A DNA stretch of 64,000 bases from Vogesella sp. XCS3 (GTDB lineage: Bacteria; Pseudomonadota; Gammaproteobacteria; Burkholderiales; Chromobacteriaceae), in assembly GCF_020616155.1 (NCBI RefSeq), contig NZ_CP085530.1, positions 929,501 through 993,500 of the forward strand. The letters run 5' to 3'. The position numbers and the translations under genes are program-made. Within the stretch, counting starts at the first letter, position 1. Each line of letters starts with the position of its first letter. Of the stretch, positions 38,011 through 64,000 are shown piece by piece. The notes beneath the pieces were generated by a model that searched no databases, had not been told where the DNA came from, and worked only from the letters and a program-made list of their open reading frames with translations.

Positions 38011-38061
38011 TGACGGTATCTATGACGGTAGTTTGCATACCGTCAGAGTGAGATACCGTCA
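38011..38061. promoter_or_regulatory. Integrase arm-type sites, left end of island
   Basis: TGACGGTA at 38011 and 38023, and its complement TACCGTCA at 38038 and 38054; the last touches the integrase start codon. Binding there could both form the integration complex and repress int. Confidence 0.65.
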
Positions 38062-39278: not shown

Positions 39279-39314
39279 AAGCAGCATCACAAACATTTTC
39301 GCCCAGAGGTAGCA

Positions 39315-40145: not shown

Positions 40146-40174
40146 TCTGCCATTTGCCTTTGGCAGTTGCCTGA

Positions 40175-40197
40175 AGCCCCGCGAAGGGGCTTTTACA
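40175..40197 (+). terminator. Rho-independent terminator
   Basis: AAGCCCC-gcga-GGGGCTT then TTACATT; separates the gene at 39315 from alpA. Confidence 0.7.
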
Positions 40198-40233
40198 TTG
40201 GCGTCACCCTTCTAATAGACGGAGTGACACACT

Positions 40234-45737: not shown

Positions 45738-45788
45738 ATTTTCGTGCCAAAAGGCGGGCAAGCCCGCCAGCGTTCAAACGATCAGACT

Positions 45789-45926
45789 TTATTTCTTGGT
45801 CGGTTTTGGCGCTTGCTGATTGGGATTCAGCTGCTTGCCCCGGTTGCCCTGGTTTTGGTCGTAAGTCTTGTTGGTGCCGGATGTACCTTTGTTACCGTTC
45901 TTGATATCAGCGTTGTGGTTCGACAT
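45789..45926 (-). CDS. 45-residue Asn/Gly/Lys-rich conserved small protein
   Basis: Begins MSNHNADIKNGNKGTSGTNK and ends NPNQQAPKPTKK; AGGAG lies seven bases upstream. I recall very similar small proteins in many proteobacterial genomes, which supports a real gene, but no function is known to me. Likely disordered and basic. Too short for standard gene callers. Confidence 0.7.
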   Translation of the reverse strand: MSNHNADIKNGNKGTSGTNKTYDQNQGNRGKQLNPNQQAPKPTKK

Positions 45927-45996
45927 GGTGATCTCCTAAAGAGCGCATAGAGGAGCCACAATTCTGCCAAAACCACTTTTTTATGCCATTGATATT

Positions 45997-46025
45997 ATCA
46001 TGATCGTTTCGTGATAAATCATGAT
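45997..46025. promoter_or_regulatory. Paired ATCATGAT operator-like sites
   Basis: ATCATGAT at 45997-46004 and 46018-46025, starts 21 bases apart, in an AT-rich leader upstream of the 45-residue gene. Likely target of the HTH regulator encoded at 45066. Confidence 0.55.
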
Positions 46026-46047
46026 ATTTCGCAGCAGGCGGAAAAAT

Positions 46048-46065
46048 GCCGGGCAGGCCCGGCAC
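46048..46065 (-). terminator. Terminator of the restriction-modification gene
   Basis: TGCCGGGC-AG-GCCCGGCA-type stem; on the minus strand it is followed by TTTTT. Lies seven bases beyond the stop at 46072. Confidence 0.8.
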
Positions 46066-46071
46066 TTTCAC

Positions 46072-49000: not shown

Positions 49001-51039
49001 GTCGCAGCGGTTTTCTTATCGGCTTTTTTCTGCACCTTATCGCTGACGGCGATCACTTCCATCTTGCTGGTGTCGTTGCCAACCAGATCCAGCTTATTGA
49101 TCATGGCATCGAAGCGGTCGTCGTGCGAACGCAGCGCCTGCAACACCTGCCACACCACCTTGTAGGTCTTGTTGTCGTTGAGGGCTTCGTCTGGTGCCAT
49201 ACCAGAGGGGATGACCACCGGCAAGATCACATAGCCGCGCTTTTTACCTTCGGCCAGACGCATGACGCGACCAACAGATTGCACCACATCGACTTGCGAG
49301 CTGCGTGGCGTGAGAAACAGCACGGCATCTAGCGCGGGCACATCCACGCCTTCAGACAGGCAGCGCACATTGCTGAGGATGCGGCAGGTATCGTCCGGCA
49401 CCGGTGCTTTGAGCCAGGCGAGTTTGCTGTCTTTCTCACCGGCATTCATGCCGCCATCGATGTGGTCTGCCTCGCACTTGAGGGTGGCGCAATCCTCGTC
49501 CGGGTTGCTGGCCTTGTACTCTTCCACCACGGCGGCAAACATGTCAGCAATCTTCTTGGAGCTGATCTTGTGGGTCTTGGCGTTGCTTTGGTACTCGATG
49601 ACCTGGCAGAACGCCACGGCGCGCCGCATCGCGGCGGCATCGTCGCCCAGGTCTTCACGGGTGTCTTGCTTGGACAGCGCTTTCCAGCAACCGACGATCT
49701 TGGCAGCGTCTTCGACCTTGATCTGGTTGTTGTCGTCCTTGAGCAGGTTTTGCAGGCTACGGCTGATGTGAGCTTCGTCCATAGCCAACACCAGCACTTT
49801 GTAGTCCACCAGTAGCCCGGCCTTCACCGCCTCGCTGAAGGTGATAACGAACAACTCTTTGCCAAACAGGCTTTCGTCGTCCATCGAGCACAGCGCCACG
49901 CCGCCTTTTTCTTCCTGGGCCTTGGCACCATCACCATAGATGCGCGGGGTGGCGGTCATGTACAGGCGCTTGGCAGCGCGAATGTAGTCGCCATCGTGTA
50001 CACGGACAAAGGCGCTTTCTTCTTCGCCGTCAAAGGTGGCACCGGTAGTACGGTGGGCTTCGTCACAGATGATGAGGTCGAAATCGGCCAAGCCATGCTC
50101 CAGTTGAGCACGGCTGATCACGTCGATGGAGTGGTAGGTGCTGAACACTACACTCATGTGCTCGCCATCGTGACGCTTGGCCATCTCTGTGGCCAACCTG
50201 GCCGCATCAGTGGTCGCCGGATAGCGCAGTTCGTGGGCCAGCGTCTGAACCACGTCATCGTCTTTCTTGCGCTTTTTGCCCACGTCGCTATCGGAACACA
50301 CGGCAAAGCTGTGCAGTGGGGTAGTGCTTTCTTGCGTCCACTCGGTGAGGGTTTGCGACAGCAGCGACAAGCTAGGTACCAAGAACAGTACGCGCTTGCC
50401 AGCCCCCACCAGCTTCTCGGCAATCTTCAGGCTGGTGAAGGTCTTACCCGTGCCGCAGGCCATAATCAGCTTGCCACGCTCTGCGTTGGCCAGGCCGGCT
50501 TCAACACGAGTCAAAGCACGGATCTGATGGTCACGCAGTTGCTTCTTGGGCTTTAGCACAGCGGCTTGCTTAGGCTGGTACTGGCTCCAGTCGATCTGGC
50601 TGTCTTCCAGTGCCTGCAAGTCCAGCTTGGTAACCGGTGGCTGCTGATTAACCAAAGCGTCTTCAGCATTTGGCCCCCAGCTGTTGGTGGTGGTAACAAT
50701 CAGGCGGCGGCTGAAAGGCTGCTTGCCGGAGGCGGTGAAAAAGCTGTCGATATCAGCTTTCTGGACTTTGTAGTCTTCGGCGTAGAACTTGCACTGGATA
50801 GCGTGGTATTCGCCGTCTGTCGTCTTGGCCACCAGGTCGATACCGGTATCCTTCTTGCTCCAGCCATTGCCGTACTGCTCGGCCCATTCGCCAAACGGCC
50901 ACACGTCGCTGTACAGGTCGCGGTAAGTGGCTTCGTTCTTGAGGTAGCAGACAATCAGCTCTTCGAAGTAGGTACCTTTTTCACGCTCGGTAACGGCGGC
51001 GTTGCGAAAGGTGGTCAGCAGGGTTTGTAGTGCAGACAT
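46072..51039 (-). CDS. Type ISP single-chain restriction-modification enzyme
   Basis: 1655 residues, close to LlaGI/LlaBIII size. Order: Mrr-like nuclease (DTGIDLVA, then AIQCKFY near 64-86); SF2 ATPase with MACGTGKT near 194-200 and ICDEAHR near 325-330; helicase C-terminal motifs (VMRLAEGKKRGYVILPVV); adenine methyltransferase with IIDPFTGTGTF near 915 and GNPPYSAGQ near 1023; C-terminal target-recognition region. Such enzymes methylate one strand of an asymmetric site and translocate to cut unmethylated DNA. No frame break seen. Anti-phage cargo of the island. Confidence 0.93.
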   Translation of the reverse strand: MSALQTLLTTFRNAAVTEREKGTYFEELIVCYLKNEATYRDLYSDVWPFGEWAEQYGNGWSKKDTGIDLVAKTTDGEYHAIQCKFYAEDYKVQKADIDSFFTASGKQPFSRRLIVTTTNSWGPNAEDALVNQQPPVTKLDLQALEDSQIDWSQYQPKQAAVLKPKKQLRDHQIRALTRVEAGLANAERGKLIMACGTGKTFTSLKIAEKLVGAGKRVLFLVPSLSLLSQTLTEWTQESTTPLHSFAVCSDSDVGKKRKKDDDVVQTLAHELRYPATTDAARLATEMAKRHDGEHMSVVFSTYHSIDVISRAQLEHGLADFDLIICDEAHRTTGATFDGEEESAFVRVHDGDYIRAAKRLYMTATPRIYGDGAKAQEEKGGVALCSMDDESLFGKELFVITFSEAVKAGLLVDYKVLVLAMDEAHISRSLQNLLKDDNNQIKVEDAAKIVGCWKALSKQDTREDLGDDAAAMRRAVAFCQVIEYQSNAKTHKISSKKIADMFAAVVEEYKASNPDEDCATLKCEADHIDGGMNAGEKDSKLAWLKAPVPDDTCRILSNVRCLSEGVDVPALDAVLFLTPRSSQVDVVQSVGRVMRLAEGKKRGYVILPVVIPSGMAPDEALNDNKTYKVVWQVLQALRSHDDRFDAMINKLDLVGNDTSKMEVIAVSDKVQKKADKKTAATKLDKGKGTYGIGSAGKAAENKPEQQTLEFEIGEIERAIFAKVVQKCGNRHHWEEWANDIAKIARTHITRITEIVKNDCNHDEQVAFQGLVAELKNDLNGKIGEEEVIEMLAQHLITKPVFDALFADYSFASHNPMSKAMQNVLDRLHEHRLDKEADTLEKFYASVKLRAEGIDKAEGKQKIIVELYDKFFRNAFPRMTERLGIVYTPVEVVDFIIHSVEHILQSQFGQSLASDGVHIIDPFTGTGTFITRLLQSGIIPAEQLKKKFKGEIHANELVLLAYYIAAINIEAVYHGIAGGDYVPFDGICLTDTFQMYEKEDLVDQVLFQNSARRKRQKALDIRVIIGNPPYSAGQDSANDNNQNVAYPQLDARIRDSYAARSAATNKNALYDSYIRAIRWASDRLGDSGVIGFVTNAGFLEANTADGLRQCLAEEFSDIYVFHLRGNARTSGELRRKEKDNVFGMGSRAPIAISLLVKNPHATQHGRIFWHDIGDYLSREEKLNIVSEFGSIGGIAAANLWQAITPDAHGDWVKQRDAGFEGFLQIGNKKQKSDVLFENYTRGLETGRDAWCVNASGKLTYQNVSKLVDFYHAELSRFNASFTHGDDADRLALIDDFVSHDATKVSWTSSLKQSLARNHAIKTDAKRLVVGLYRPFQKQWIYYHGALNHRVGQLPQIFPDVQSPNRMIVIKQRWNGDGQLALMVDHIMELQTDGGTQCFPLYLYEEDDAKPAKEPQQDSLFDSPPAAAAKVGRTRRDAITDEGLAYFVAAYPDMPISDAISKEDIFYYVYGLLHSPDYRERFADNLSKELPRIPCVKGAANFREFSKAGRKLAELHLNYETVAMYEGAKVDTSGKTLTAADYRVEKMKYGKTKVVDKETGQSKTVDDKTVLIYNPRITVTGIPLEAYEYVVNGKPALDWVVERQRVKPDPVSGIVNDANDWATETMNNPRYPLELFLRVVTVSLETMKIVKALPSLDI

Positions 51040-51352
51040 GGCGATTTATTCTTATCAGGTTAGATGACTGAGCAATGCGGCATTTTAATCACAAAACCAA
51101 TGCCATGAGGATTTTTGCAAAGACGGGTAGTAGACGTTGGCCATCGCAAGTAGGCCTGAAGAAAACGTGACGAGGTGAGCTGAGTCACTCACGGACAAAA
51201 CCACATCTAATGTGGACTCACCGATGAGATCAACGAGCCTGACGCTGCCAGAGTAACAATGAGACTTAAGTACCACATCTGCTATGCAGGCCCAGGATCG
51301 ACTAATTAGTCTGAAAGACATTTGCTCCACGAGAAGAGCAACGCAAAGGAAG

Positions 51353-51372
51353 TGACGGTATTTTTGACGGTA
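51353..51372. promoter_or_regulatory. Integrase arm-type sites, right end of island
   Basis: TGACGGTA at 51353 and 51365, 12 bases apart, exactly the spacing of the direct pair at 38011/38023. Confidence 0.7.
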
Positions 51373-51434
51373 TTTTCAAAGTCCAAATTGAAAAAAACAT
51401 TGCCAGTGTTGGTTTTTAGCAGTCAATTCTGTAG

Positions 51435-51449
51435 TCGCCGCCCCACCGG
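51435..51449 (+). other. Possible degenerate attR
   Basis: CGCCGCC-CCACC matches CGCCGCCTCCACC of the tmRNA end with one base missing. Short, so only suggestive. Confidence 0.35.
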
Positions 51450-51474
51450 ATTCTAGTAAAATCAAGCAGTTAGC

Positions 51475-51509
51475 AAAAAAGCCCCGCACTTGCGGGGCTT
51501 TTTTTTGGG
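51475..51509. terminator. Bidirectional terminator at island-chromosome junction
   Basis: A-run, AGCCCCGCA-ct-TGCGGGGCT, T-run; works in either direction. Stem identical to that at 26171. Confidence 0.85.
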
Positions 51510-51704
51510 CTTTTTGAGGCTGTTTGGTCAGCTTTTTGGTCAGCATTTTTTGGCGTCACAAATACCAAAAGCCACTACGCCAAAGCGCAGATGCTTTTTC
51601 ATTTTACAACTTTGGTCACAATCCAGCGCCCGCCTGCTGGACGATGGGCAGCAGCCGCCCCCGGACAGTGACATGCATTAAGCAGCCACCAAACAGCCGA
51701 CAGA

Positions 51705-51714
51705 GTTGGCCGCA
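51705..51714 (-). repeat. TGCGGCCAAC motif, intergenic
   Basis: Exact copy of the 10-mer enriched in the chromosomal block; see findings. Confidence 0.6.
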
Positions 51715-51780
51715 TCGCGCTGGCAGGACTTGGGCAAGGGGCAGAGGTGGGAAATTGCTCGCTAGCAATCACACTGTGGC

Positions 51781-51975
51781 TTACCGATCAATACCCACAC
51801 CCGGTATCTGCCGCAACCAGATCACGCCGCCCGGCAGTGTGGTTTTGCAGAAATCGCCTACGCGGCGCTCTGGCGGGCAGACATGCGGGTCGTCCGGCTT
51901 GCTGCCCAGCAACACCCAGGCTAGCAATATGGTCGATGCCGCTACCGCAAAGTACAGAAAATGTACCGGCTTCAT
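51781..51975 (-). CDS. Small membrane or exported protein
   Basis: 64 residues from MKPVHFLYF, with GGAGG five bases upstream on the minus strand. N-terminal hydrophobic helix (FLYFAVAASTILLAWVLLGS) then a short Cys-containing tail (HVCPPERRVGDFC). Probably a small inner-membrane or periplasmic protein of the host; not recognised. Confidence 0.6.
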   Translation of the reverse strand: MKPVHFLYFAVAASTILLAWVLLGSKPDDPHVCPPERRVGDFCKTTLPGGVIWLRQIPGVGIDR

Positions 51976-52125
51976 AGCCCCTCCGTCTTTCATGACTCAG
52001 CATCATAACAAGCAAATGTCATTGACCATGACATGGCAACGGAGTTTCTGCAGAACAATGAAATCAGCATTTTGCACGATCGCTACAAAGTGCGTTTTGC
52101 CTATTTGTATCGAGAACCAGAAAGA

Positions 52126-52163
52126 CAGTGCGGCCAAGCTGGGATAACAGCTTGGCCGCACTG
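52126..52163 (-). terminator. Hairpin built from the TGCGGCCAA motif, after pyk
   Basis: CAGTGCGGCCAAGCTG, loop ggataa, CAGCTTGGCCGCACTG: a perfect 16-base stem 44 bases beyond the pyk stop. On the minus strand TCTTTCT follows. Likely the pyk terminator. Confidence 0.8.
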
Positions 52164-52206
52164 GGCACATGGCAAGCCGGCGTGAAGCCGGCATGGGGCC
52201 GGGCGC

Positions 52207-53631
52207 TTAGCGCGCTTCGCCCGCCTTGATGATCTTCATGGTATTGGTGTGGCCCATCATGCCCACGGTGTCGCCGATGGTTACTACAAGCACGTCACCC
52301 TGCTCTACGCGGCCGCGCTCCAGCAGTTTGCGCTCGGCGGCCGCCAGCAGTTTTTTCTGGTCGGTAGCGGCGGGCAGCAGCATGGGGAATACGTCGCGGT
52401 ACATGGCCAGGCGGCGGTAGGTGCGGATATCGGGTGTTAGCGCGTAGATGGGCACGCCGCAATTCACCCGGCTGATCCACAGCGCGGTAGAGCCGGTCTG
52501 GGTGAGCGACACCAGCGCGCGCACCGGCAGGTGATTGGCGGTAAACAGCGCGGCCATGGCGATGGACTGGTCTACGCGGGTGAATTCGCGGTTGAGGAAG
52601 GTGCGCTCCAGCTGGTAGTCGCTGGAGTTTTCCGCCTCCATACACACGCGCGACATGGATTCGACCGTTTCTACCGGGAACTGGCCGGCAGCGGTTTCGG
52701 CCGACAACATCACCGCGTCGGTACCGTCCAGCACGGCGTTGGCCACGTCGGATACTTCGGCGCGGGTAGGCACCGGGCTGCTGATCATGGACTCCATCAT
52801 CTGGGTGGCGGTGATGGTGAGCTTGTTACGCTCGCGGGCGGCGCGGATCATGCGTTTTTGCAGCGCCGGCACCGCGGCGTCGCCCACTTCTACCGCCAGG
52901 TCTCCGCGCGCCACCATGATGCCGTCGGCGGAGTTGATCAGGTCGTCCAGGTTGGTGATGGCTTCGCAGCGCTCGATCTTGGCGATGATGCGCGCCTGAC
53001 AGCCGGCGGCGTTAATCAGCGTGCGCGCCATGTACAGGTCGGCGCTGCTCTTGGGGAAGGATACCGCCACGTAGTCGGCCTCCAGCTGCGCCGCCACCTT
53101 GATGTCGTCGATATCTTTGGCGGTCAGCGCCGGGGCAGACAGGCCGCCGCCCTGGCGGTTGATGCCTTTGTTATTGGATAGCACGCCACCCACTTTCACC
53201 TTGGTGTGGATCTGGCTGCCCAGGACTTTTTCTACTACCAGCACGATGCGGCCATCGTCCAGCAGCAGTACGGCACCCGGCTCTACGTCGCCCGGCAGCT
53301 CTTTGTAGTCCAGCCCTACGCGGCCGTCGTCACCCAGCGTGCATTCGGCGTCCAGGATAAAGGGCTGGCCGTTGGTCAGCGTGGTCTTGCCGTTGGCAAA
53401 CTTGCCGACGCGGATTTTGGGACCCTGCAGGTCTACCATGATGGCCACCGGCACGCCCAGCTTGTCGGCAGTGCTGCGCACCAAGGTGGCGCGGTCGATA
53501 TGGTCTTGCGCGCTGCCGTGCGAGAAGTTGAGGCGCACCACGTTGACGCCGGCTTGTAACAGGCGCTCCAGTGTTTCTGGGTCGCTGGAAGCCGGGCCGA
53601 GGGTGGCGACGATTTTGGTACGACGGGTCAT
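52207..53631 (-). CDS. pyk: Pyruvate kinase
   Basis: 474 residues. Converts phosphoenolpyruvate and ADP to pyruvate and ATP, the last step of glycolysis. Landmarks: TKIVATLGPASS at the start, VVRLNFSHG, DLQGPKIRVG, the active-site stretch IMVARGDLAVEVG and ATQMMESM, and the DGTDAVMLSAETAAGQFPVE segment. AAGGAG precedes the ATG. A weak promoter-like pair (TTTAGT, 17 bases, CATAAT) lies upstream. Monocistronic; flanked by a motif-hairpin at the 3' end. Confidence 0.97.
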   Translation of the reverse strand: MTRRTKIVATLGPASSDPETLERLLQAGVNVVRLNFSHGSAQDHIDRATLVRSTADKLGVPVAIMVDLQGPKIRVGKFANGKTTLTNGQPFILDAECTLGDDGRVGLDYKELPGDVEPGAVLLLDDGRIVLVVEKVLGSQIHTKVKVGGVLSNNKGINRQGGGLSAPALTAKDIDDIKVAAQLEADYVAVSFPKSSADLYMARTLINAAGCQARIIAKIERCEAITNLDDLINSADGIMVARGDLAVEVGDAAVPALQKRMIRAARERNKLTITATQMMESMISSPVPTRAEVSDVANAVLDGTDAVMLSAETAAGQFPVETVESMSRVCMEAENSSDYQLERTFLNREFTRVDQSIAMAALFTANHLPVRALVSLTQTGSTALWISRVNCGVPIYALTPDIRTYRRLAMYRDVFPMLLPAATDQKKLLAAAERKLLERGRVEQGDVLVVTIGDTVGMMGHTNTMKIIKAGEAR

Positions 53632-53771
53632 GGTGTTGTCTCCTTGGGTTCTGCCTGCATTATGGTACGAAACGCGCGTGTACTAAATTGATTACAGTTA
53701 AAGCCGGTTAACGGCAGATTCACGCAGCATTGGCCGCAAAAACTGCCGCTGCCAGCCACCCGCCCCCGCCC

Positions 53772-53781
53772 TGCGGCCAAC
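53772..53781 (+). repeat. TGCGGCCAAC motif, intergenic
   Basis: Exact copy between pyk and the cytochrome gene, followed by CTTGGCC, a partial inverted partner. Confidence 0.6.
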
Positions 53782-53827
53782 CTTGGCCATCCGTGCGTAA
53801 TACGCGCACTACCTGCGCACAAAACAA

Positions 53828-53849
53828 AAGGCACGCCGTAGCGTGCCTT
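53828..53849. terminator. Terminator hairpin between pyk and cytochrome gene
   Basis: AAGGCACGC-cgta-GCGTGCCTT; A-rich on its left, so it ends the leftward cytochrome transcript. Confidence 0.75.
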
Positions 53850-53868
53850 GGTGCCTAAGCCACCCCTG

Positions 53869-54519
53869 TTACACCAGCGACAAGCCGCCTACCACCAGTA
53901 CGGCAGCCACCACCAGCACCACCAGCGCCAGCCAGCCCGGCGCAAAGCGCAGCGGTTTGACCTCGCCGGCCAGCGTTTTGCTGCCGGTAATCATCGGCGG
54001 CACCAGGTTGGTATTTTTCAGCTTGCGGTAAGCCACAATCGCCAGCACGTGTACGCCTACCAGGCCCAGCAGCACGTTGAACCAGATTTCGTGCCATTCG
54101 GTTACCTGCTCGGCCAGGCCACTATCGATGAGCTTGGCCAGCGGGCCGTCGAAGGTGTAGCTGTCCACGTCGGCGGCAAACAGGCCCAGGCCCAGCTGCA
54201 CCAGCAGCGCACCCAGCAACGCCACCACCATCAGCCCGCCCAGCGGGTTGTGGCCTGGCTGCTGGTTTTCGCTGACCTCACCGCGCAGGTAGGCTTTTAC
54301 CTGACAGGGCTTGAAAAAATCGCTGAAGCGCGCGGTCTGGCTGCCCACCACACCCCACAGCAGGCGGAACACCACCAGCACCAGCATGGCTACGCCCAAT
54401 TTGGTATGAATCTGCAGCTGGCCGTTTTCGGCCGACGCCCACATCCCCGCAAACATGGCCAGCAGCGTCCAGTGAAACAGGCGTGTCGGCACATCCCATA
54501 CTTTTACCTTGTTACTCAT
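53869..54519 (-). CDS. Cytochrome b561-type membrane protein
   Basis: 216 residues. Four or five membrane helices; heme-ligand His residues in [14 protein letters not shown] and [20 protein letters not shown], then [20 protein letters not shown] (two more). This is the b-type cytochrome of the PF01292 group that passes electrons in the inner membrane. Partner not encoded nearby. Divergent from tyrS across about 200 bases. Confidence 0.88.
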
Positions 54520-54723
54520 TTACCCTCTCCCGTCTTTTGGCCGGCTGTTGCCAGCTCATCCTCATGCAACAGGGATTTTACCCCTGCCGGCGTATGCCGT
54601 GCTGAAGCAATGCTTAACGAATGTTGCCCACAATGTGCCAGCGCAGCAAAACGGCAAAATCGGGTAAACTTGGCGTTTTGCTGTGGGGCCCTGCGCCCCG
54701 ACCCTTTCAGGAGAACAATACAG

Positions 54724-55998
54724 ATGTCCCAAGCCTCCCTTATCCAGGATCTGCAAGCACGCGGTCTGATTGCACAACAAACCGATGCGGCTGCCCTCGA
54801 AGAACTGCTGGCCAAGGAAAGCGTGACCCTGTATTGCGGCTTTGACCCTACCGCCGACAGCCTGCACCTGGGCCACCTGGTACCGGTGCTGGTGCTCAAG
54901 CGCTTCCAGCAGGCCGGCCACAAGCCCATCGCGCTGGTAGGCGGCGCCACCGGCATGATCGGCGACCCCAGCTTCAAGGCCACCGAGCGCAAGCTGAACA
55001 CCCCGGACGTGATTGCCAGCTGGGTAGAGAAAATCCGCGGCCAGGTATCGCCGTTCCTGAGCTTTGACGGCGACAACGCCGCCATCATGGCCAACAACTA
55101 CGACTGGTTTGGCGGCATGGGCGCGCTGGAGTTCCTGCGCGACATCGGCAAGCATTTCTCCGTGAACCAGATGATCAAGAAAGAATCGGTTCAGCAGCGT
55201 ATCAACCGCGAAGACCAGGGCATCAGCTACACCGAATTCAGCTACAGCCTGCTGCAAGGCTACGACTTTGCCGAGCTGTACCGCCGCCACGGCTGCCAGC
55301 TGCAGATTGGCGGCTCCGATCAGTGGGGCAATATCACCGCCGGTACCGACCTGACCCGCCGCATCCACCAGAAACAGGTGTACGGCCTGACCCTGCCGCT
55401 GGTCACCAAAGCCGACGGCACCAAGTTCGGCAAAACCGAAGGCGGCGCGGTGTGGCTGGACGCCAGCAAGACCAGCCCGTACGCCTTCTACCAGTTCTGG
55501 CTGAACACCGCCGACGCCGACGTGTACAAGTTCCTGCGCTACTTTACTTTCCTGTCCATCGACGAGATCAACGCCATCGAAGAGCAGGACAAAACCAGCG
55601 GCACCAAGCCGCAGGCGCAGCGCATTCTGGCCGAGCAAGCTACCGCGCTGGTACACGGCCAGGCCGCGGTCGACGCGGCACAGCGCATCAGTGCCAGCCT
55701 GTTCAGCGGCAGCGTCACCGACCTCACCGCGTCCGACCTGGCGCAGCTGGCGCAGGACGGCATGCCCAGCGTGCAGATCGAGCGGGCACAAGCAGGCTTG
55801 ATCGACGCGCTGGTGGCCGGCGGCCTGGCCAAGTCCAAGTCCGAAGCGCGTACCTTTATCCAGAGCGGCGCGGTGAGCATCAACGGTAACAAGATCGAGG
55901 CGCTGGATTACCAGGTAGCCGATAGCGACCGCCTGTTTGGCCAGTACAGCCTGCTGAAACGCGGCAAGAAAAACCACACGCTGATCAGCTGGATCTAA
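54724..55998 (+). CDS. tyrS: Tyrosyl-tRNA synthetase
   Basis: 424 residues. Class I signature HLGH in [20 protein letters not shown] near 45; tyrosine pocket in [20 protein letters not shown] and [23 protein letters not shown] replaces KMSKS near 237; C-terminal S4 RNA-binding domain ([20 protein letters not shown]). AGGAG lies upstream. It charges tRNA-Tyr. Followed by two hairpins. Confidence 0.97.
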
Positions 55999-56031
55999 GC
56001 GCTACCATACTGCGCAGACAGCACAACAAAA

Positions 56032-56055
56032 CACCCGGCCCGCGCCGGGTGTTTT
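56032..56055 (+). terminator. Rho-independent terminator of tyrS
   Basis: CACCCGGC-ccgc-GCCGGGTG then TTTTG. Confidence 0.85.
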
Positions 56056-56079
56056 GCTATCGGCTACCGCCAAAAGCAC

Positions 56080-56112
56080 TGCGGCCAACCCTGGCTGGCA
56101 AGGTTGGCCGCA
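56080..56112. repeat. Inverted pair of TGCGGCCAACC motifs after tyrS
   Basis: TGCGGCCAACC (56080-56090), 11-base loop, GGTTGGCCGCA (56102-56112). Can form a hairpin between the convergent tyrS and the gene at 56131. Confidence 0.8.
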
Positions 56113-56130
56113 TGATTCTGCCCGCGGGTA

Positions 56131-56751
56131 TCAGGACACGCGCAGGTCGGTATCGCCATTGGCGTCCGGCACGCTGCTGTAGCGCAGCAGGCCGGGCGTG
56201 GTGGCAGGCAGCGCCTCGGCTACCGGTTTGCCGGCCAGCAGCGCCAGCGCCGGCACTACCACGGCAGCGCGCAGTGCATCTTCGCTGCTCAAGGCCGCCA
56301 GATCCAGGGTGTAGGTCCATTCCGGCCCGAAGCTGCTATCGCTTTCTTCCCACCACAGCAGGCTATCGCCCTGCTGCTGCCACGGCTGCCACTGGCTGGC
56401 GGGGAAGCCGACATAAGCATCGTATTCAAAGGCAAACTCGCAAGCCCAGTGCGCCACGTGCAGTACCGGCGCGCACGGCTGGCCATCGGCGCGCTGCGGC
56501 AAGCCGTCGCCGGACAGGCTGATCTGGTAATTGAGCCAGCCGCCGATGAACTCTTTCTTTTTCTTGTTGCGCACCAGCAGGCCAAAGCTGCTGGACAGTG
56601 CGCTACGCTCGCCTTGATATTGCTGCTGCGAGTGCAGCTGTTCGGCAATTTTGCGGCACAGGCCGCTGGCGGTGATGGCTTCGGCCAGCAGAGTGTCCAG
56701 GGTTTGCTGCAGGTTTTTGGCGTGGCGCCAGGGCTCGTTGCCGGTAGTCAT
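56131..56751 (-). CDS. Conserved protein of unknown function
   Basis: 206 residues from MTTGNEPWRHAKN. Segments HAKNLQQTLDTLLAEAITAS, LSSSFGLLVRNKKKKEFIGG and VLHVAHWACEFAFEYDAYVG are distinctive; alpha-beta, soluble, no signal peptide. Convergent with tyrS. I do not recognise the family. Confidence 0.75.
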   Translation of the reverse strand: MTTGNEPWRHAKNLQQTLDTLLAEAITASGLCRKIAEQLHSQQQYQGERSALSSSFGLLVRNKKKKEFIGGWLNYQISLSGDGLPQRADGQPCAPVLHVAHWACEFAFEYDAYVGFPASQWQPWQQQGDSLLWWEESDSSFGPEWTYTLDLAALSSEDALRAAVVVPALALLAGKPVAEALPATTPGLLRYSSVPDANGDTDLRVS

Positions 56752-56941
56752 GCGGTGTAGCTTTCGTGTTCGTTGGGCGGGGCGGAGGGTGCCCCGCTGG
56801 CAAGCGCGCAGTCTAGCACAGGCTACCGGCGTGGATGACGGGCAAAAAAGAGGGGTTGCCCGTCCAAAGGCAACCCCGCATCCCATCCAGGTCCATCCAG
56901 CAGAAGCGACTTGCTGTTGGCACCAGATTAGCGAAATATCG

Positions 56942-57931
56942 TTACGGCATGATGACAGGCAAGAGGCTCAGCACCACCTTGCCCAGGTTGCGGTTGTCTT
57001 CCACATATCGATGAGCGTCGGCCACCGCCGCCAGCGGGTAGACGCTATCCAGCGTGACGCGCGCGCGGCCGTCGGCCAGCGCGGGCAGCACCTCGGCTTC
57101 CAGCGCGGCGGCCAAGCTGGCTTTCACCGCTTCCGGCTGGCTGCGCAGCGTGGAGCCTAGCAAGCGCAGCCGCTTTACCAGCAACAGGCCCAGGTTCAGC
57201 GTGGCGCTGCTGCCGCCCATGATGCCGATCACCACCAGGCGACCGTCCGGCTTCAGCACCGCGATATTGTCGTCAAACAGCGCGGCACCTACCGGGTCCA
57301 GCACCACGTCTACCCCGCCCTGTGCCTTGAGGTTGGCCGCAAAGCCGGCTTGGCGGCTATCGATGACCTCGTCTGCCCCCAGGCTGCGGCAAAACTGGCG
57401 CTTTTCCTCGCTACCGGCACTGGCTACCACGCGGGCGCCCAGCAGGCTGGCCAGCTGGATGGCTGCAGCGCCTACACCGCTGGCACCGGCGTGAATCAGC
57501 ACCGTTTCGCCCGGCTGCAGCGCGGCAATGTCAACCAGGTTGAACCAGGCGGTCATCCACGCCTCGGGCAGGCTGGCGGCCTCGGCCCAGCTCATCAGGT
57601 CTGGCTTGGGCAGCGCGGCGCTGCTATCGATCAACGCGTACTCGGCGTAGCCGCCACCGGACACCAGGCCAAACACCGCATCGCCTTCCTGAAAGCGCGA
57701 CGGGCCATTAACGGCATCGACAATGCCGGCGATTTCCAGACCCAGTACCGGCGACGCGCCCTTGGGCGGCGGGTACTTGCCCTCGCGCTGCACGATATCG
57801 GCGCGGTTAATACCCGCCGCCAGCACGCGCACGCGCAGCTGGCCGGGCGCCGGCTGCGGCTTTTCGGCAAAGGCGATTTCCAGTGTATCTGCGCCACCCG
57901 GCGCGCTTTGTGTGACCAGCTGCATGGACAT
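56942..57931 (-). CDS. NAD(P)H quinone oxidoreductase, PIG3-like
   Basis: 329 residues from MSMQLVTQS. Medium-chain dehydrogenase fold without structural zinc: AGINRADIVQREGKYPPPKG, ASPVLGLEIAGIVDA, then the nucleotide-binding GASGVGAAAIQLASLLGARV and VVIGIMGGSSATLNLGLLLV. This group reduces quinones with NADPH. Monocistronic, divergent from ccoI. Confidence 0.92.
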   Translation of the reverse strand: MSMQLVTQSAPGGADTLEIAFAEKPQPAPGQLRVRVLAAGINRADIVQREGKYPPPKGASPVLGLEIAGIVDAVNGPSRFQEGDAVFGLVSGGGYAEYALIDSSAALPKPDLMSWAEAASLPEAWMTAWFNLVDIAALQPGETVLIHAGASGVGAAAIQLASLLGARVVASAGSEEKRQFCRSLGADEVIDSRQAGFAANLKAQGGVDVVLDPVGAALFDDNIAVLKPDGRLVVIGIMGGSSATLNLGLLLVKRLRLLGSTLRSQPEAVKASLAAALEAEVLPALADGRARVTLDSVYPLAAVADAHRYVEDNRNLGKVVLSLLPVIMP

Positions 57932-57982
57932 GATTGACCCTCGGCAAAACAAGTAGCATCTCTTGCACTACAATAGCACGCC

Positions 57983-60418
57983 ATGAACCCGACCTGCTTT
58001 CACTGCAGCCTGCCCATCCCCGCGGGGCAGGCTTTTCCTATCCGCTATCGCGAACGTACCGAACAAGCCTGCTGCGCCGGCTGCCAGGCGGTAGCGCAGA
58101 CCATTATCGACAGCGGCCTGGCCGACTACTACGAGCACCGCACCGCCGAGCAGCGCCAGGCCGAGCCCGTACCGGCCGAGCTGCTGCAGCAGATGCAGCT
58201 ATACGATAACGAAGCGCTGCAACACAGCTTTGTGCACGTGGAAGACGAGCACATCCGCGAGGCTTCGCTGATGCTGGAAGGCATCACCTGCGCCGCCTGC
58301 GTCTGGCTGAACGAGCACCACGTACGCAAGCTGCCGGGCGTGCTGTCGGTAGACATCAACTACGCCACCCATCGCGCCCGCGTGCGCTGGGACGTGCGCC
58401 AGCTCAAGCTCAGCCAGATTCTGGAAGCCATCAGCGCCATTGGCTACCGCGCCCACCCCTACGATGCCTCGCGCCAGGAAGCGCTGCACCAGAAAGAGCG
58501 CAAAACCGCGCTGAACCGGCTATGGGTGGCCGGCCTGTCCATGATGCAGGTGATGATGTACGCCTACCCGGTGTACATGGCGCCGGATGGCGAAATCGAA
58601 AGCCAGTGGCTGTGGATGCTGCACTGGTCCAGCTTTGTGCTCACGCTGCCGGTAGTGCTGTACTCGGCCATACCGTTTTACCGCGGCACCTGGCGCGACC
58701 TGAAGCGCGGCCGCGTCGGCATGGACACCCCCGTTACCATCGGCATTCTGACTGCCTTTCTGGCCAGCCTGTGGGCGCTGCTGAACAAGGTAGAGCACGG
58801 CGTGTACTTCGACTCGGTATCGATGTTCATCTTCCTGCTGCTGGGCGGCCGCTATCTGGAAAGCATGGCGCGGCGCAAAACCGGCGAAGCCACCGAAAAA
58901 CTGGTGAAGCTGATCCCGGCCTTTGCCCACGCGGTACCGGGTTGGCCGCAAGACCAGACCCAGCAGGAGGTGGCCGTCAGCCAACTGGCGGTGGGTGATG
59001 TGGTGCTGGTGAAACCGGGCGAAACCATCCCCTGCGACGGCGACATCCTGGAAGGCCACAGCAGCGTGGATGAAGCGCTGCTCACCGGCGAAAGCACGCC
59101 CATCAGCAAGCAGGCTGGCGACAGCGTGATTGCCGGTAGCGTGAACCAGGCCAGCCCGCTGCTGCTGCGCCTTAGCCGTACCGGCAGCGACACCCGCCTG
59201 GCCGGCATTGTGCGGCTGATGGATCAGGCGCTGGCGGAAAAGCCGCGCCTGGCCGAGCTGGCCGACCGCTACGCCGTGTGGTTTGTTACCGTACTGCTGC
59301 TGGCCGCCGCCGCCACCTATATCGGCTGGAGCCTGGCCGGCAGCCAGGAACACGCGCTATGGGTAACGGTGGCGGTACTGGTGGTGTCCTGCCCGTGCGC
59401 GCTGTCGCTGGCCACGCCGGCGGCGCTGACCGCTGCCACCGGCCACATGGCGCAGCTGGGCATCCTCACCACCCGCGGCCATGCGCTGGAAACGCTGGCG
59501 CGTATTAGCGATGTGGTATTCGACAAGACCGGCACCCTCACCCACGGCCGCATGCAACTGCTGGCCAGCCATGGCTTTAATCACCCGGACGCCGGGCAAG
59601 CGCTGGCCATGGCCGCCGCGCTGGAGCAAGGCTCCGAGCACCCTATCGCCCGCGCCCTGCTGCAAGCCGCGGAAGGCACCGCGCTACCCGCGTGCGGCCA
59701 ACGTAGCAACCAGCCTGGCCAGGGCATAGAAGCCGACATCGCCGGCCAGCGCTGGCGCCTGGGCCGCCCGGCTTTTGTGGCCGGGCTAAGCGGCAGCTTT
59801 AGCCTGCCGGACGAGCTGCCGGCCAGCGCCACCATCATCGCGCTGGGCGATGGCCGCGGCGTGGCCGCCGTGTTTGCCATTGGTGACCAGGTACGTGACG
59901 ACAGCGCGGCGCTGATCCGCGCCCTGCAAGCACGTGGCCTGCGCGTCCACCTGCTGTCTGGCGACGCCGACAAGGCGGTGGCCAGCCTGGCGTCACAACT
60001 GCACATTGCCGATTACCGCGCCGCCGCCACGCCGGAAGACAAGCTGGCGTATGTCAGCCAGCTACAGCAAGGCGGTGCACGCGTACTGATGGTGGGCGAC
60101 GGTGTAAACGATGCGCCGGTACTGGCGCGCGCCGACGTGTCGCTGGCCATGGGTGGCGGCACTGACGTGGCACGCGCCAGCGGCGACATGGTACTGATGG
60201 GCGACGAGCTGGGCCGCCTGCCGCAGGCACTGGGCCTGGCCGCGCGCAGCATGCACATCATCCGCCAGAACCTGGCGTGGGCCGCGTTGTACAATCTGGT
60301 GGCGCTGCCGCTGGCCATGGCCGGCTGGGTCACGCCCTGGCTTGCCAGCCTGGGCATGGCGCTCAGCTCGCTGCTGGTAGTGAGCAATGCCCTGCGCCTG
60401 ACCAAACGGAGTAAGTAA
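57983..60418 (+). CDS. ccoI: Copper-transporting P1B-ATPase CcoI/FixI
   Basis: 811 residues. N-terminal Cys-rich region (CFHCSLPIPAGQAFPI, CCAGCQAVAQTI) then a heavy-metal-associated domain with GITCAAC near 100; eight membrane helices; LTGESTPISKQAGD actuator; CPC in VVSCPCALSLATP near 469; DKTGTLTHG phosphorylation site near 513; GDGVNDAPVLARADV. It exports copper for assembly of cbb3 oxidase. Followed by overlapping ccoS. Confidence 0.95.
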   Translation: MNPTCFHCSLPIPAGQAFPIRYRERTEQACCAGCQAVAQTIIDSGLADYYEHRTAEQRQAEPVPAELLQQMQLYDNEALQHSFVHVEDEHIREASLMLEGITCAACVWLNEHHVRKLPGVLSVDINYATHRARVRWDVRQLKLSQILEAISAIGYRAHPYDASRQEALHQKERKTALNRLWVAGLSMMQVMMYAYPVYMAPDGEIESQWLWMLHWSSFVLTLPVVLYSAIPFYRGTWRDLKRGRVGMDTPVTIGILTAFLASLWALLNKVEHGVYFDSVSMFIFLLLGGRYLESMARRKTGEATEKLVKLIPAFAHAVPGWPQDQTQQEVAVSQLAVGDVVLVKPGETIPCDGDILEGHSSVDEALLTGESTPISKQAGDSVIAGSVNQASPLLLRLSRTGSDTRLAGIVRLMDQALAEKPRLAELADRYAVWFVTVLLLAAAATYIGWSLAGSQEHALWVTVAVLVVSCPCALSLATPAALTAATGHMAQLGILTTRGHALETLARISDVVFDKTGTLTHGRMQLLASHGFNHPDAGQALAMAAALEQGSEHPIARALLQAAEGTALPACGQRSNQPGQGIEADIAGQRWRLGRPAFVAGLSGSFSLPDELPASATIIALGDGRGVAAVFAIGDQVRDDSAALIRALQARGLRVHLLSGDADKAVASLASQLHIADYRAAATPEDKLAYVSQLQQGGARVLMVGDGVNDAPVLARADVSLAMGGGTDVARASGDMVLMGDELGRLPQALGLAARSMHIIRQNLAWAALYNLVALPLAMAGWVTPWLASLGMALSSLLVVSNALRLTKRSK

Positions 60419-60591
60419 TGGAAAGCCTGTACCTGTTGATTCCCATGAGCATCGTGCTGGTGTTCTTTATCGGCCTGCTGTTCTGGTGGTCTACCCGCTC
60501 CGGCCAGTTTGACGACCTGGAAGGCCCTGCCCACCGCATCCTGATGGATGACGACGACAGCCAGCGCGACACACCCAAGCAGCAGGACTAA
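60418..60591 (+). CDS. ccoS: cbb3 oxidase maturation protein CcoS
   Basis: 57 residues, missed by 60-residue cut-offs. MESLYLLIPMSIVLVFFIGL is the membrane helix; FWWSTRSGQFDDLEGPAHRI is the family signature. Its ATG overlaps the ccoI stop (TAATG). Needed for cofactor insertion into cbb3 oxidase. It converges with the kinase gene and overlaps it by four bases. Confidence 0.95.
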   Translation: MESLYLLIPMSIVLVFFIGLLFWWSTRSGQFDDLEGPAHRILMDDDDSQRDTPKQQD

Positions 60592-61889
60592 CCCGCCTGC
60601 GGGCAGGCGGCCGGTGCCATTGCGGGCACAGCGGCCATGGGCTGCCCGGCGACAAAGGGCAGCTGCACGATAAAGCAGGCACCGTGCGTAGCGGCCTCCA
60701 GCCGTATCTGCCCGCCGTGCGCCTGGGCAATGCGGCGGCAGATCGCCAGCCCCAGCCCCGCGTGGCCACTATCCTGCCCCAGGCTACCCTGCTCGAACGC
60801 TTCAAATATCCGCTCTGCTTCCGTGGCAGGCACCCCGGGGCCTTCGTCCCGCACCATCAGCTGCAAACACGTCTCCAGGCGGTCTATCTGGAGCTCGATC
60901 GCCCCGCCCTGCGGTGAAAAACGGATGGCATTGCCCAGCAATTGCCCCAGCAGCTGCATCAGGCTGCCATGATCGGCCACCAGGCGTGGCAAGGGGTGGC
61001 TGCTTACGCGTATTTGCAGCTCGCGCGGCTGCCATGCCGGCTCGTGCTGGCTGACGCAGTCTTCTACCAGCTGGCGCATATTCAGGCTTTGCCAGTGAAA
61101 CGGCCGTCGCCCTGCATCCAGCGCGGCCAGGTCAATCAACCCGTTCAGCTGATAGGAAAGCCGCTGGCCGTTCTCGCCAATCGCCGCCAGGTGTGCGGCC
61201 ACGCGCTGGGTGTCGCCACGCGCCAGCTTGAGCCTGGCCATCTCGGCAAAATTCAGTATGCCGTGCAGCGGGGTCAGCAGCTCGTGCGAGACATTCGCCA
61301 ACAGCCGGTTTTTGGCCTGGCAGGCATGCTCGGCCGCCAGCTTGGCGTCGATCAGCGCCAGCGCCTGCTCAGCCAGCGACTGCCCCATATCGGCCTGCCC
61401 CTGACGCAGCGTGGCCTGTAGCTGCTGGCTATCCGACACGTCCCGCCCCGTGCCGCGGTAACCGGCCAGCTGCCCGGCAGCGTCGAACCAGGGCAAGGCA
61501 CTGAGCGAAATATGGCGCTGCACACCATCGGGGCAGTCCAGCAAAAACACCTGGTTGCGAAAAGGCTGGCCAGCGGCAAACAACGTGGCCAGACGGCTAT
61601 GGCTATCCGGCGAGCCCTGTACTGCCTGCAGCGCAGACCAGTGCAAGCCGTGCAGTGACGCCGGGGCAAACCCCAGCAAGGGCTGCAGCGCCGCGGAACA
61701 GCGCACGATGCGACCGGCGCCGTCCAGCTCCCAGAACCAGTCGCTGGCAATGGTCAGAAAATCCTGCAACACCTGCCGCTGCTGTACTGCGGCCAACTGC
61801 ATGCCACGCATGCGCTGCCGTAAGCGCACCATGGCAAGGAGTAAAGCAATGCAACAAAGCGCAGCGCAAAAAAACGCAAGAACCAACAT
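60588..61889 (-). CDS. Membrane-anchored PAS sensor histidine kinase
   Basis: 433 residues. One N-terminal helix (VLAFFCAALCCIALLLAMVR), a PAS domain near 45-160, HisKA with His in LLANVSHELLTPLHGILNFA near 205, and HATPase: NAIRFSPQGG (N box), DEGPGVP (G1), GHAGLGLAICRRIAQAHGG (G2). It probably autophosphorylates on His and passes phosphate to a response regulator encoded elsewhere. No receiver domain or partner gene is seen here. Confidence 0.92.
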   Translation of the reverse strand: MLVLAFFCAALCCIALLLAMVRLRQRMRGMQLAAVQQRQVLQDFLTIASDWFWELDGAGRIVRCSAALQPLLGFAPASLHGLHWSALQAVQGSPDSHSRLATLFAAGQPFRNQVFLLDCPDGVQRHISLSALPWFDAAGQLAGYRGTGRDVSDSQQLQATLRQGQADMGQSLAEQALALIDAKLAAEHACQAKNRLLANVSHELLTPLHGILNFAEMARLKLARGDTQRVAAHLAAIGENGQRLSYQLNGLIDLAALDAGRRPFHWQSLNMRQLVEDCVSQHEPAWQPRELQIRVSSHPLPRLVADHGSLMQLLGQLLGNAIRFSPQGGAIELQIDRLETCLQLMVRDEGPGVPATEAERIFEAFEQGSLGQDSGHAGLGLAICRRIAQAHGGQIRLEAATHGACFIVQLPFVAGQPMAAVPAMAPAACPQAG

Positions 61890-62209
61890 GGCCAGAACCT
61901 TTTCAGAGCGGAACCGGCAGGCTAACGCTGCCCATACGGAATATTTCGATATTATGCCACGCGGCTATCGCCCATAAATACCAACGCAGCCGAACGTTCA
62001 CCATTTTGGGCAACGCACCCACCCGGCAAGCACGCCAACCACATTAAACATTAGCAATCATATACTTACAAAAAGCCGCCAGCCCCGACAGCGTTGGCCG
62101 CATGATCAACGCTCCTGGCCGAGGCAAGCCAGGGCTCGATATGCACGCTTGATACAGCGTAAAATGGCAGTTATTCCGATTCCACTGCCCGCCAGCCATT
62201 AACCTGCAC
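61890..62209. other. Divergent intergenic region
   Basis: Separates the kinase and trkA, which point apart. It has one exact GTTGGCCGCA at 62093-62102 followed by ATGATC; the same GTTGGCCGCATGAT extension occurs at 56103. No gene or clear promoter pair identified. Confidence 0.5.
62093..62102 (-). repeat. TGCGGCCAAC motif, intergenic
   Basis: Exact copy in the kinase-trkA spacer, GTTGGCCGCA on the plus strand. Confidence 0.6.
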
Positions 62210-63580
62210 ATGAAAATACTGATTCTGGGCTGCGGCCAGGTCGGCGCCAGCGTCGCCGAAAACCTGGTAGATGAAGGTAACGACATCACCGTGGTAGACC
62301 AAGACCCCAACCTGCTGAAACTGCTGCAGGCCAAGCTGGATATCCGTACGGTAGCCGGCAATGCCGCCCTGCCCGGCATACTGCGCCAGGCCGGTGCCGA
62401 CGAGGCCGAAATGCTGCTGGCGCTGACCCGTAGCGACGAAACCAATCTGCTGGCCTGCGCGCTGGCACAGCGCCACTTCAATATCCCTACCCGCATCGCC
62501 CGCATCCGCGCTACCGACTACGTGGACGGCGACCTGCCTGTGCTGGAGCAGTTTGGCGTGGAGCACGCTATCTGCCCGGAGCAAATCGTGACCCAGAACC
62601 TGAAGCGCCTGCTGCAGTACCCGCGCGCGCTGCAGGTTATCGACTTTGCCGAAGGCAGTGCCCAGCTGGTGGTATCGCGTGCACAGCAAGGCGGCAAGCT
62701 GCTGGGCAAGCCGCTGCGCCAGCTGCGCGAGGACATGCCGGACACCGACTGCCGCATCTGCGCCATCTACCGCGACGACAGGCTGGTACAGCCCGATGGC
62801 AGCACGGTGATACAGGAAGGTGACGAAGTGTTTTTTGTGGCCGCGCGCGCCGACATCCCCACCATGCTGGCCGAGCTGCGCCCCAGCGAAAAGGCGGTAA
62901 AACGGGTGATGATCGCCGGTGGCGGCAATATCGGCTACCGCCTGGCGCGGCAGCTGGCCGACGACTACGAAGTCAAGATCATCGAATACCGCGCCGAGCG
63001 CGCGCGCTGGCTTGCAGAAAACCTGCCTGGCGTACTGGTGCTGCACGGCGAGGCCACCGACGAGGCGCTGCTGGAAGAAGAGAACATCGACGAGATGGAC
63101 GCTTTTTGCGCGCTGACCAACGACGACGAAGACAACCTGATGTCCACGCTGCTGGCCAAGCGCATGGGGGCGCGGCGTGTCATTGCGCTGGTCAACCGCG
63201 CCAGCTACGTGGACCTGCTGGAAGGTAACCGCATCGACATCGTCATTTCACCTTATCTGTCTACCATCGGTTCGATTCTGGCGCATCTGCGCCGCGGCGA
63301 CGTGGTAGCGGCGCACCCGGTACGGCGCGGCCGCGCCGAGGTGCTGGAGGTGATCATCCACGGCGACAGCCACAGCTCGCGCATGGTTGGCCGCCGCGTC
63401 GACGCGCTAGACCTGCCGCGCGGCTGCAGCATCAGCGCCATCATCCGCGACGGCCAGGTGCTGATGGCACACCACGACACCCTGCTGCAAGCCGAAGACC
63501 ACCTGATCATCTTCGTGCACGGCCGCCACCGCGTGAAACAAATCGAAAAACTGACACAAGTGAAACTGGGGTTCTTCTGA
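62210..63580 (+). CDS. trkA: Trk potassium uptake regulator TrkA
   Basis: 456 residues. Two Rossmann RCK units: MKILILGCGQVGASVAENLV with ITVVDQD near 30, and VMIAGGGNIGYRLARQLADD near 233, each followed by a TrkA-C domain (MADE-like ending DHLIIFVHGRHRVKQIEKL). It binds NAD(H)/ATP and gates the TrkH/G potassium channel from the cytoplasm. Two bases before the VOC gene, so co-transcribed. Confidence 0.95.
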   Translation: MKILILGCGQVGASVAENLVDEGNDITVVDQDPNLLKLLQAKLDIRTVAGNAALPGILRQAGADEAEMLLALTRSDETNLLACALAQRHFNIPTRIARIRATDYVDGDLPVLEQFGVEHAICPEQIVTQNLKRLLQYPRALQVIDFAEGSAQLVVSRAQQGGKLLGKPLRQLREDMPDTDCRICAIYRDDRLVQPDGSTVIQEGDEVFFVAARADIPTMLAELRPSEKAVKRVMIAGGGNIGYRLARQLADDYEVKIIEYRAERARWLAENLPGVLVLHGEATDEALLEEENIDEMDAFCALTNDDEDNLMSTLLAKRMGARRVIALVNRASYVDLLEGNRIDIVISPYLSTIGSILAHLRRGDVVAAHPVRRGRAEVLEVIIHGDSHSSRMVGRRVDALDLPRGCSISAIIRDGQVLMAHHDTLLQAEDHLIIFVHGRHRVKQIEKLTQVKLGFF

Positions 63581-63582
63581 GC

Positions 63583-63975
63583 ATGAGCATACGCGGCATC
63601 CACCACGTGGCCATTATTGCGGCCAACTATGCGCGCTCGCGCGACTTTTATCTGAACACCCTGGGCTTTACCCTGGTGTCAGAGCACTACCGTGCCGAGC
63701 GCGACTCCTGGAAACTGAACCTGGCGCTGCCGGATGGCTGCCAGATCGAGCTGTTCAGCTTTCCCAGCCCGCCACCCCGCCCCACCCGGCCAGAAGCCTG
63801 CGGGCTACGCCACCTGGCGCTGGCTACCACCGGTCTGGACGCCGACATCGCCCGCCTGACCAGCCTGGGTGTCACTTGCGAGCCGGTGCGCGTGGATGAG
63901 TACACCGACCGCCGCTTTACCTTCCTGGCCGACCCGGACGGGCTGCCGATCGAGCTGTACGAAGTGCCGGCATGA
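63583..63975 (+). CDS. VOC-family (glyoxalase-like) protein
   Basis: 130 residues. IHHVAIIAANYARSRDFYLN, CQIELFSFP, LRHLALATTGLDADIARLTS and FLADPDGLPIELYE give the H-E-H-E metal set of the vicinal oxygen chelate fold. Close to the GloA2/YaeR group; substrate unknown. Coupled to trkA before it and to the next gene by an ATGA overlap. Confidence 0.9.
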   Translation: MSIRGIHHVAIIAANYARSRDFYLNTLGFTLVSEHYRAERDSWKLNLALPDGCQIELFSFPSPPPRPTRPEACGLRHLALATTGLDADIARLTSLGVTCEPVRVDEYTDRRFTFLADPDGLPIELYEVPA

Positions 63976-64000
63976 GCAAGCTGCTACCCATCATCCACGT
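63972..64000 (+). CDS. Start of next gene, cut by window edge
   Basis: Opens MSKLLPIIH at an ATG overlapping the VOC stop. Too short to identify. Confidence 0.55.

Follow-up and report, generated by a model that had tools for sequence, protein, structure and literature searches.

Recognition of self DNA during uptake by means of an abundant short word is, to our knowledge, established in two groups only, the Pasteurellaceae and the Neisseriaceae. For Neisseria, it has been proposed that a preference of uptake for DNA bearing the word lets words spread and persist. The words of the Neisseriaceae, DNA uptake sequences (DUS), carry an invariant CTG at +6 to +8, with T at +7 in all published dialects, and no obvious DUS was found by Frye et al. 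in Chromobacterium, Laribacter, Lutiella or Pseudogulbenkiania (PMC3630211). PMC4906244 describes neisserial ComP as binding DNA through a DD region that two disulfides among four cysteines hold in place; PMC12061091 treats how ComP reads DUS as unsolved, and PMC12616744 gives ComN as the predicted receptor for the uptake signal sequences (USS) of Pasteurellaceae. Here we analysed a 64-kb stretch of the Vogesella sp. XCS3 chromosome (the window), in which a sequence-only reading had pointed to a DUS-like excess of the 10-base word TGCGGCCAAC, which reads AG-GTTGGCCGCA on the other strand with its flank. We conclude, with a probability of roughly 0.8, that TGCGGCCAAC, a repeat found throughout the genus Vogesella, likely serves in DNA uptake as a recognition sequence whose predicted receptor at the pilus surface is the minor pilin ComP. 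Like the neisserial dialects, it is present in approximately 2,000 exact copies on both strands, forms intergenic inverted pairs, is depleted in foreign DNA and has dialects among related genera. It would resemble the USS in its predicted working as an abundant self-DNA tag, and differs from it in host group, in the receptor predicted (ComN for the USS) and in core sequence.

The genome (3,889,382 bases) contains 2,279 exact copies of TGCGGCCAAC, 1,106 forward and 1,173 reverse, compared with 11 copies of the reversed word used as a control. The over-representation is therefore larger than first claimed, and the DUS-like density on both strands, of the order of one exact copy in 1–2 kb, was read correctly. 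The whole window contains 25 copies, for which 0.46 were expected and the maximum in shuffles was 3. In a 380-kb chromosome sample, TGCGGCCAAC ranks first among 10-mers (n = 257; 0.68 per kb), and a comparison with Markov models, as had been proposed, gave expectations of 2.7 (order 3) and 14.3 (order 5), corresponding to excesses of 97-fold and 18-fold, respectively. Variants that differ by one letter are enriched chiefly at position 1 (41 with C, 35 with G and 16 with A), and those at positions 2–10 occur at about the chance level or lower, except for slight surpluses, for example of G at position 10 (11 versus 3.3). The bases 3′ of the word favour C (0.60), T (0.58) and T (0.45), which gives the extended form TGCGGCCAACCTT; beyond approximately three flanking bases, little sequence is common to the copies.

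In the 380-kb sample, a custom gene caller based on hexamers predicted 367 genes (90.1% coding) and placed 179 of the 257 copies in coding sequence, 77 between genes and one overlapping. The coding copies occupy several frames, and a majority of them lie in the Ala-Ala-Asn or Leu-Ala-Ala frames, as would suit an abundance created by codon or composition bias. However, when synonymous codons were shuffled within genes (50 rounds), the 179 coding copies fell to a mean of 7.2 (maximum 14), whereas five other words used as controls gave 0–5 observed versus 0.6–3.8 expected. Moreover, the density between genes is approximately fourfold that in coding sequence (2.06 versus 0.52 per kb), and sister genera of like GC content are at background for TGCGGCCAAC. 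Together, the Markov and synonymous-shuffle counts rule out bias as the cause, an explanation that now has virtually no chance of being right, and the earlier argument that codon use does not account for the word holds.

The copies are also arranged in a characteristic manner. Neighbours less than 150 bp apart in the sample lie on opposite strands in 21 of 21 cases, with 16 of these pairs between genes; chance spacing predicts 24.8 pairs at this distance, all orientations together. Within 60 bp, 17 pairs are opposite and none is on the same strand (10.2 expected over all orientations), so the intergenic inverted pairs that were to be looked for are present. Such pairs, 17 of them within 60 bp in 380 kb, could betray a terminator hairpin or a mobile palindrome similar to repetitive extragenic palindromic (REP) elements, and the one such pair in the window, at 56080–56089 (+) and 56103–56112 (−), downstream of a gene judged by eye to encode TyrRS, has a predicted hairpin of −24.5 kcal/mol; its z is only −1.8, and 12 of 200 shuffles are equally good. 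Against such a role, 179 of 257 copies are inside genes, mostly as single copies, the copies share scant sequence in their flanks, and an Rfam scan of 51–64 kb of the window returned no family at the gathering score. On these three observations we rejected termination or a REP-like element as the principal function of the word, a reading that we regard as extremely unlikely. Terminator use of the pairs would be a side role, by analogy with Neisseria, for which the title of a reference cited in the literature reports a terminator role of uptake sequences.

Signals such as Chi or segregation guides are strand-polarised. A chromosome-maintenance word of this kind, unrelated to uptake, would fit the thousands of copies and their depletion in plasmid and prophage DNA (see below). 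Judged by the sign of GC skew, however, 121 of the 257 sampled copies are on the leading and 136 on the lagging replication strand (p = 0.38), and the balance between forward and reverse copies over the genome is similarly even; a polar chromosome word was rejected on the strand count. Clustering as intergenic inverted pairs is unexpected for such signals, as is a spelling that differs from genus to genus in words whose presence a pilin loop follows. A maintenance role is accordingly very unlikely.

An uptake sequence would be expected to be depleted in mobile DNA, and this was observed. The stretch from 10707 to 39278 encodes eight proteins with matches to phage families, namely replication O, DnaB, terminase, portal, head, tape measure, tail J and integrase. 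Seven of these, from 10707 to 34924, are on the prophage side, and we therefore took the first 37.9 kb (1–37900) as prophage, with a provisional left boundary. It is followed by an integrase (38061) with a putative island (37900–51400) and by a chromosomal block (51400–64000). The density of TGCGGCCAAC is 0.29, 0.30 and 0.79 per kb in these three regions, respectively. Prophage and island together contain 15 copies in 51.4 kb, rather than the approximately 14 counted earlier, versus 34.8 at chromosomal density (p = 5e-4). The depletion is stronger in the second contig, C2, in which 160 kb of 164.5 kb contain 4 copies versus 108 expected (p = 1e-33), close to the 0.8 that chance alone would give in this contig. 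C2 encodes T2SSE, T2SSF, ParM-like actin and DotM_C proteins, with a weak Shufflon_N match below the cut-off; judging from these proteins it looks like a conjugative plasmid, and no near plasmid record was found with the 20 kb of C2 that were searched. C2 also contains three 310-aa open frames (L075:8020–8952, L076:10587–11519 and L079:3491–4423) with identical first 40 residues, probably transposases of an insertion sequence.

To assess how the word is distributed, we compared 13 Vogesella genomes (g1), including Vogesella oryzae (G055, by a 20-kb stretch identical to the named record) and a genome whose ComP is 100% identical to that of Vogesella sp. LIG4 (G059), with 48 genomes from nine sister genera (g2–g10). 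Among these, g5 is Crenobacter (C. cavernae and C. luteus, by 100% ComP identity) and g3 is of Chromobacterium type. The family is that of the genome-tool classification; NCBI places Crenobacter in Neisseriaceae, and Vogesella and Chromobacterium in Chromobacteriaceae. All 13 Vogesella genomes contain 1,871–2,895 copies of TGCGGCCAAC, and the 48 sister-genus genomes at most 58. Among 399 genomes sampled across the order, TGCGGCCAAC is high in six only, all Vogesella. Within the genus, loci of the XCS3 genome were compared with those of other Vogesella for exact copies, with GC-matched words as controls. The word was kept in 13 of 13 cases at ≥92% locus identity (control 0.63), 9 of 12 at 85–92% (control 0.42), 7 of 13 at 78–85% (control 0.21) and 4 of 9 below 78% (control 0.08), these cases being non-independent because a single XCS3 site can enter the tally with more than one relative.

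Pattern-free word discovery in 20–60 kb per sister genus showed that g5, g6, g7, g9 and g10 share the core CGGCCAAC and differ from Vogesella in the letters 5′ of it. The ends added to the core are CT in Crenobacter and TT in five genera. The CT dialect, CTCGGCCAAC, is present in 1,940 and 1,590 copies in the two Crenobacter genomes, and the TT dialect, TTCGGCCAAC, in 579 and 2,168 (g6), 1,245 (g7), 1,851 (g9) and 1,104, 183 and 893 copies (g10), as well as in 1,368 copies in G010, one of the ten species of g2. CGGCCAACCT, the core plus CT, reaches high counts inside the family only, with at most 64 copies in 386 genomes outside it. The spellings are nearly exclusive, the exceptions being G036 (TT 579, CT 165) and Crenobacter (TT 77 and 78). 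None of the three spellings exceeds 92 copies in the other nine g2 species or in the g3 (19), g4 (four) and g8 (six) genomes, and a search for a diverged uptake word in 140 kb from a single species of each of g2, g3 and g8, and in 80 kb of g4, found none. Close pairs in stretches from the other carriers (the remaining Vogesella, g5, g6, g7, g9, g10 and G010) are opposite in 10 cases and on the same strand in 2. Between genera, single-copy positions are mostly unshared, and thus copy-by-copy dialect conversion was not seen.

A ParC tree, the deep forks of which lack resolution, recovers Vogesella as one clade (96/100), joins g5 with g6 (97/92) and places G010 near g2/g3 (88/84). The TT spelling is scattered across this tree, which suggests that it may be the ancestral one. 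G036, with its mixed TT and CT spellings, is a g6 genome, and g6 is joined in this tree to Crenobacter, which uses the CT spelling; a dialect change in progress is possible. We rejected TyrRS for tree building, as g5, g7, g9 and g10 have another type. The TyrRS of G034, G035, G038 and G045–G048 is 31–33% identical to that of the rest of the family over most of its length, G045 being represented by short pieces only.

The proposed receptor, a ComP homologue, exists in the genome as predicted. Its gene is at C1:3106226, and the protein scores 32.6 bits against PF16732 (cut-off 27.3). By sequence and by fold, the nearest solved structures are those of ComP (PDB 5hz7, 2m3k and 2nba), with other pilins ranking below ComP in the fold search. 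Like these, it is a minor pilin whose model has a long β1–β2 loop (residues 90–101, between strands 85–89 and 102–107), modelled with low confidence. It differs from them in a loop motif, N[TAV]Dx[GD], and in having two cysteines, both C-terminal, instead of four. Exactly two cysteines in the last 25 residues are found in 22 carrier ComPs, 3 of which have one or two extra cysteines near the N-terminal helix. ComP was read in all 23 carriers of the repeat and, of the 34 non-carriers that have a ComP-level hit, in 21 (8 g2, 8 g3 and 5 g8). Of the 23 carriers, 22 have the motif in the β1–β2 loop, which is predicted to bind DNA; none of the 21 non-carriers has it. In carriers it is mostly R/K-N-T-D, and 21 end in G; some form of N-x-D occurs in three non-carrier ComPs, in one of them (G029) within the loop. 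The difference is most marked within g2, where the loop of the carrier G010 reads ANTDAG, versus GNAR(A/N)D in its eight non-carrier sisters. Among database pilins, the motif is found in 22 of 26 (P0122 to P0147) and in 0 of 95 (P0148 to P0242). ComEC matches were obtained in 59 of 61 genomes (at C1:3479369 in XCS3). Genus g4 (G030–G033) has ComEC and no ComP-level hit in four of four genomes.

These observations are consistent with a mechanism in which ComP on the pilus would bind free DNA carrying TGCGGCCAAC, pilus retraction would pull the word-bearing DNA in and ComEC would pass one strand inward. Recombination with word-bearing DNA from kin would then copy the word onward, so that it would accumulate.

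The claim that the word is unlike the known DUS dialects has to be corrected. In Frye numbering, the opposite strand reads AG-GTTGGCCGAA for the TT dialect, AG-GTTGGCCGCA for Vogesella and AG-GTTGGCCGAG for Crenobacter. Among seven dialects compared, AG-mucDUS and AG-simDUS share 9 of 12 letters with the TT and 8 of 12 with the Vogesella spelling; random 12-mers of 62% GC reach 9 of 12 with P = 0.004 when kept in register and 0.009 when shifts are allowed. AG at −2/−1, C at +6 and G at +8 are shared with DUS, A at +10 is kept in the TG (Vogesella) and TT dialects and is G in the CT dialect of Crenobacter, and C at +9 of the Vogesella word is also found in king3DUS. By contrast, +5 is G here, which is absent from the seven dialects compared, and +7 is C instead of the T of all eight published dialects, such that CCG replaces the invariant CTG. 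With C at +7, the repeat is not a DUS dialect by the published definition. Its sequence suggests common descent with DUS, and a family of DNA uptake sequences beyond the known neisserial dialects is the best explanation of the repeats. The evidence on frequency, codon context and mobile DNA, each named in advance as able to overturn the DUS-like interpretation, did not do so, and the interpretation is supported.

A broader history can be proposed tentatively, at somewhat less than even odds: recognition of self DNA by ComP would be older than the known neisserial dialects, with DUS and the present repeat derived from one ancestral word. The TT form, AG-GTTGGCCGAA, would be ancestral in the sister family, and Vogesella (C at +9) and Crenobacter (G at +10) would have changed it. 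Chromobacterium, most g2 species and others would have lost the word and, with it, the ComP loop N-x-D-x-[G/D], which would read DNA without a DD region.

Several observations weigh against TGCGGCCAAC being an uptake sequence read by ComP. No report of competence or an uptake sequence in Vogesella was found in PMC, natural-transformation matches being judged by title. The Vogesella spelling by itself, at 8 of 12 letters, resembles DUS weakly (P = 0.025 when kept in register and 0.059 when shifts are allowed). The called prophage genes contain 10 copies versus 0.99 after codon shuffling, above codon expectation and with a prophage density less than half of the chromosomal one; the prophage may have long resided in this or a similar host, or may move by transformation. 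Two carriers, the Vogesella drafts G057 and G058, have no ComEC match. The loop motif was defined post hoc, on cases related by descent and covering 21 of 34 non-carrier ComPs. One carrier, G045 (80% complete, 7% contaminated, with a fragmented ParC), was counted as a miss, its best ComP-profile hits (125.5 and 98.6 bits) both lacking the motif. These hits may be paralogues or a real miss; a pilin like them is named for Aquitalea sp. ASV11 (P0147). Finally, the homologue, having two C-terminal cysteines and not four, lacks the DD region with which neisserial ComP binds DNA, ComP homologues occur without the repeat in g2 (nine of ten species), g3 and g8, and the genome encodes two further PF16732 pilins, either of which could act as receptor in its place.

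The last three points would equally fit an uptake sequence read by another minor pilin, the PilE-type protein at C1:112281 or the third PF16732 pilin, with the ComP homologue having lost DNA reading along with its DD region; the PilE-type pilin has the highest PF16732 score of the three (81.7 bits). However, in PDB it matches P. aeruginosa PilE best, with no ComP entry among the matches listed at E up to 1, and it was therefore rejected as the receptor. Furthermore, g4 has PF16732 pilins, but neither a ComP-level hit nor the repeat, and the ComP loop motif follows the repeat even within g2, a comparison made for ComP and not for the two other pilins. We consider a receptor other than ComP unlikely. 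The PilE-type minor pilin gene of the XCS3 genome (L001:1420–1851) contains two copies of TGCGGCCAAC.

If TGCGGCCAAC is indeed an uptake sequence read by ComP, it and its sister spellings add three further dialects that seem to have been switched or lost between closely related species. Their receptors, which differ naturally in the loop and lack a DD region, would then form a comparative experiment on receptor–word co-evolution in environmental bacteria. In practice, the words would tag DNA for the transformation of Vogesella and Crenobacter and help to recognize foreign DNA in their genomes. Among the PMC matches listed, none is by its title on uptake sequences in Chromobacteriaceae genera, those for the family name being papers on neisserial taxonomy, and most preprints and subscription journals lie outside PMC. 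Searches for TGCGGCCAAC and TTCGGCCAAC as strings gave no uptake paper by title among the matches listed, and the available parts of PMC12061091, PMC12616744 and PMC7371117 do not mention Vogesella or Chromobacter.

Within the window, all ten copies claimed for 51705–63627 are found at their places, except that the last starts at 63618 and not at 63619, and 5 of the 10 are inside called genes, in agreement with half being intergenic. Besides the inverted pair, they comprise 51705–51714 (−), 53772–53781 (+), upstream of a gene judged by eye to encode pyruvate kinase, 57332–57341 (−) in a quinone oxidoreductase-like gene (by eye), 58941–58950 (−) and 59693–59702 (+) in the same 811-aa gene, a P-type ATPase by eye, 61788–61797 (+) in a sensor kinase-like gene (by eye), 62093–62102 (−) between called genes and 63618–63627 (+) in the Ala-Ala-Asn frame. 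On the prophage side, copies are at 510–519 (+), where the provisional left boundary applies, 10481–10490 (−), 11872–11881 (+; DnaB-like gene), 13071–13080 (−), 15740–15749 (+), 15991–16000 (+), 20301–20310 (+), 21363–21372 (+; major head protein gene), 27205–27214 (+; tape measure gene), and 32572–32581 and 33913–33922 (both +; tail fibre J gene). The island contains copies at 42259–42268 (−), 43721–43730 (−), 46749–46758 (+) and 47452–47461 (−). Next to the island end, a 1,655-aa open frame (46072–51039) with helicase-like and methyltransferase-like stretches, recognized by eye, is possibly a restriction system.

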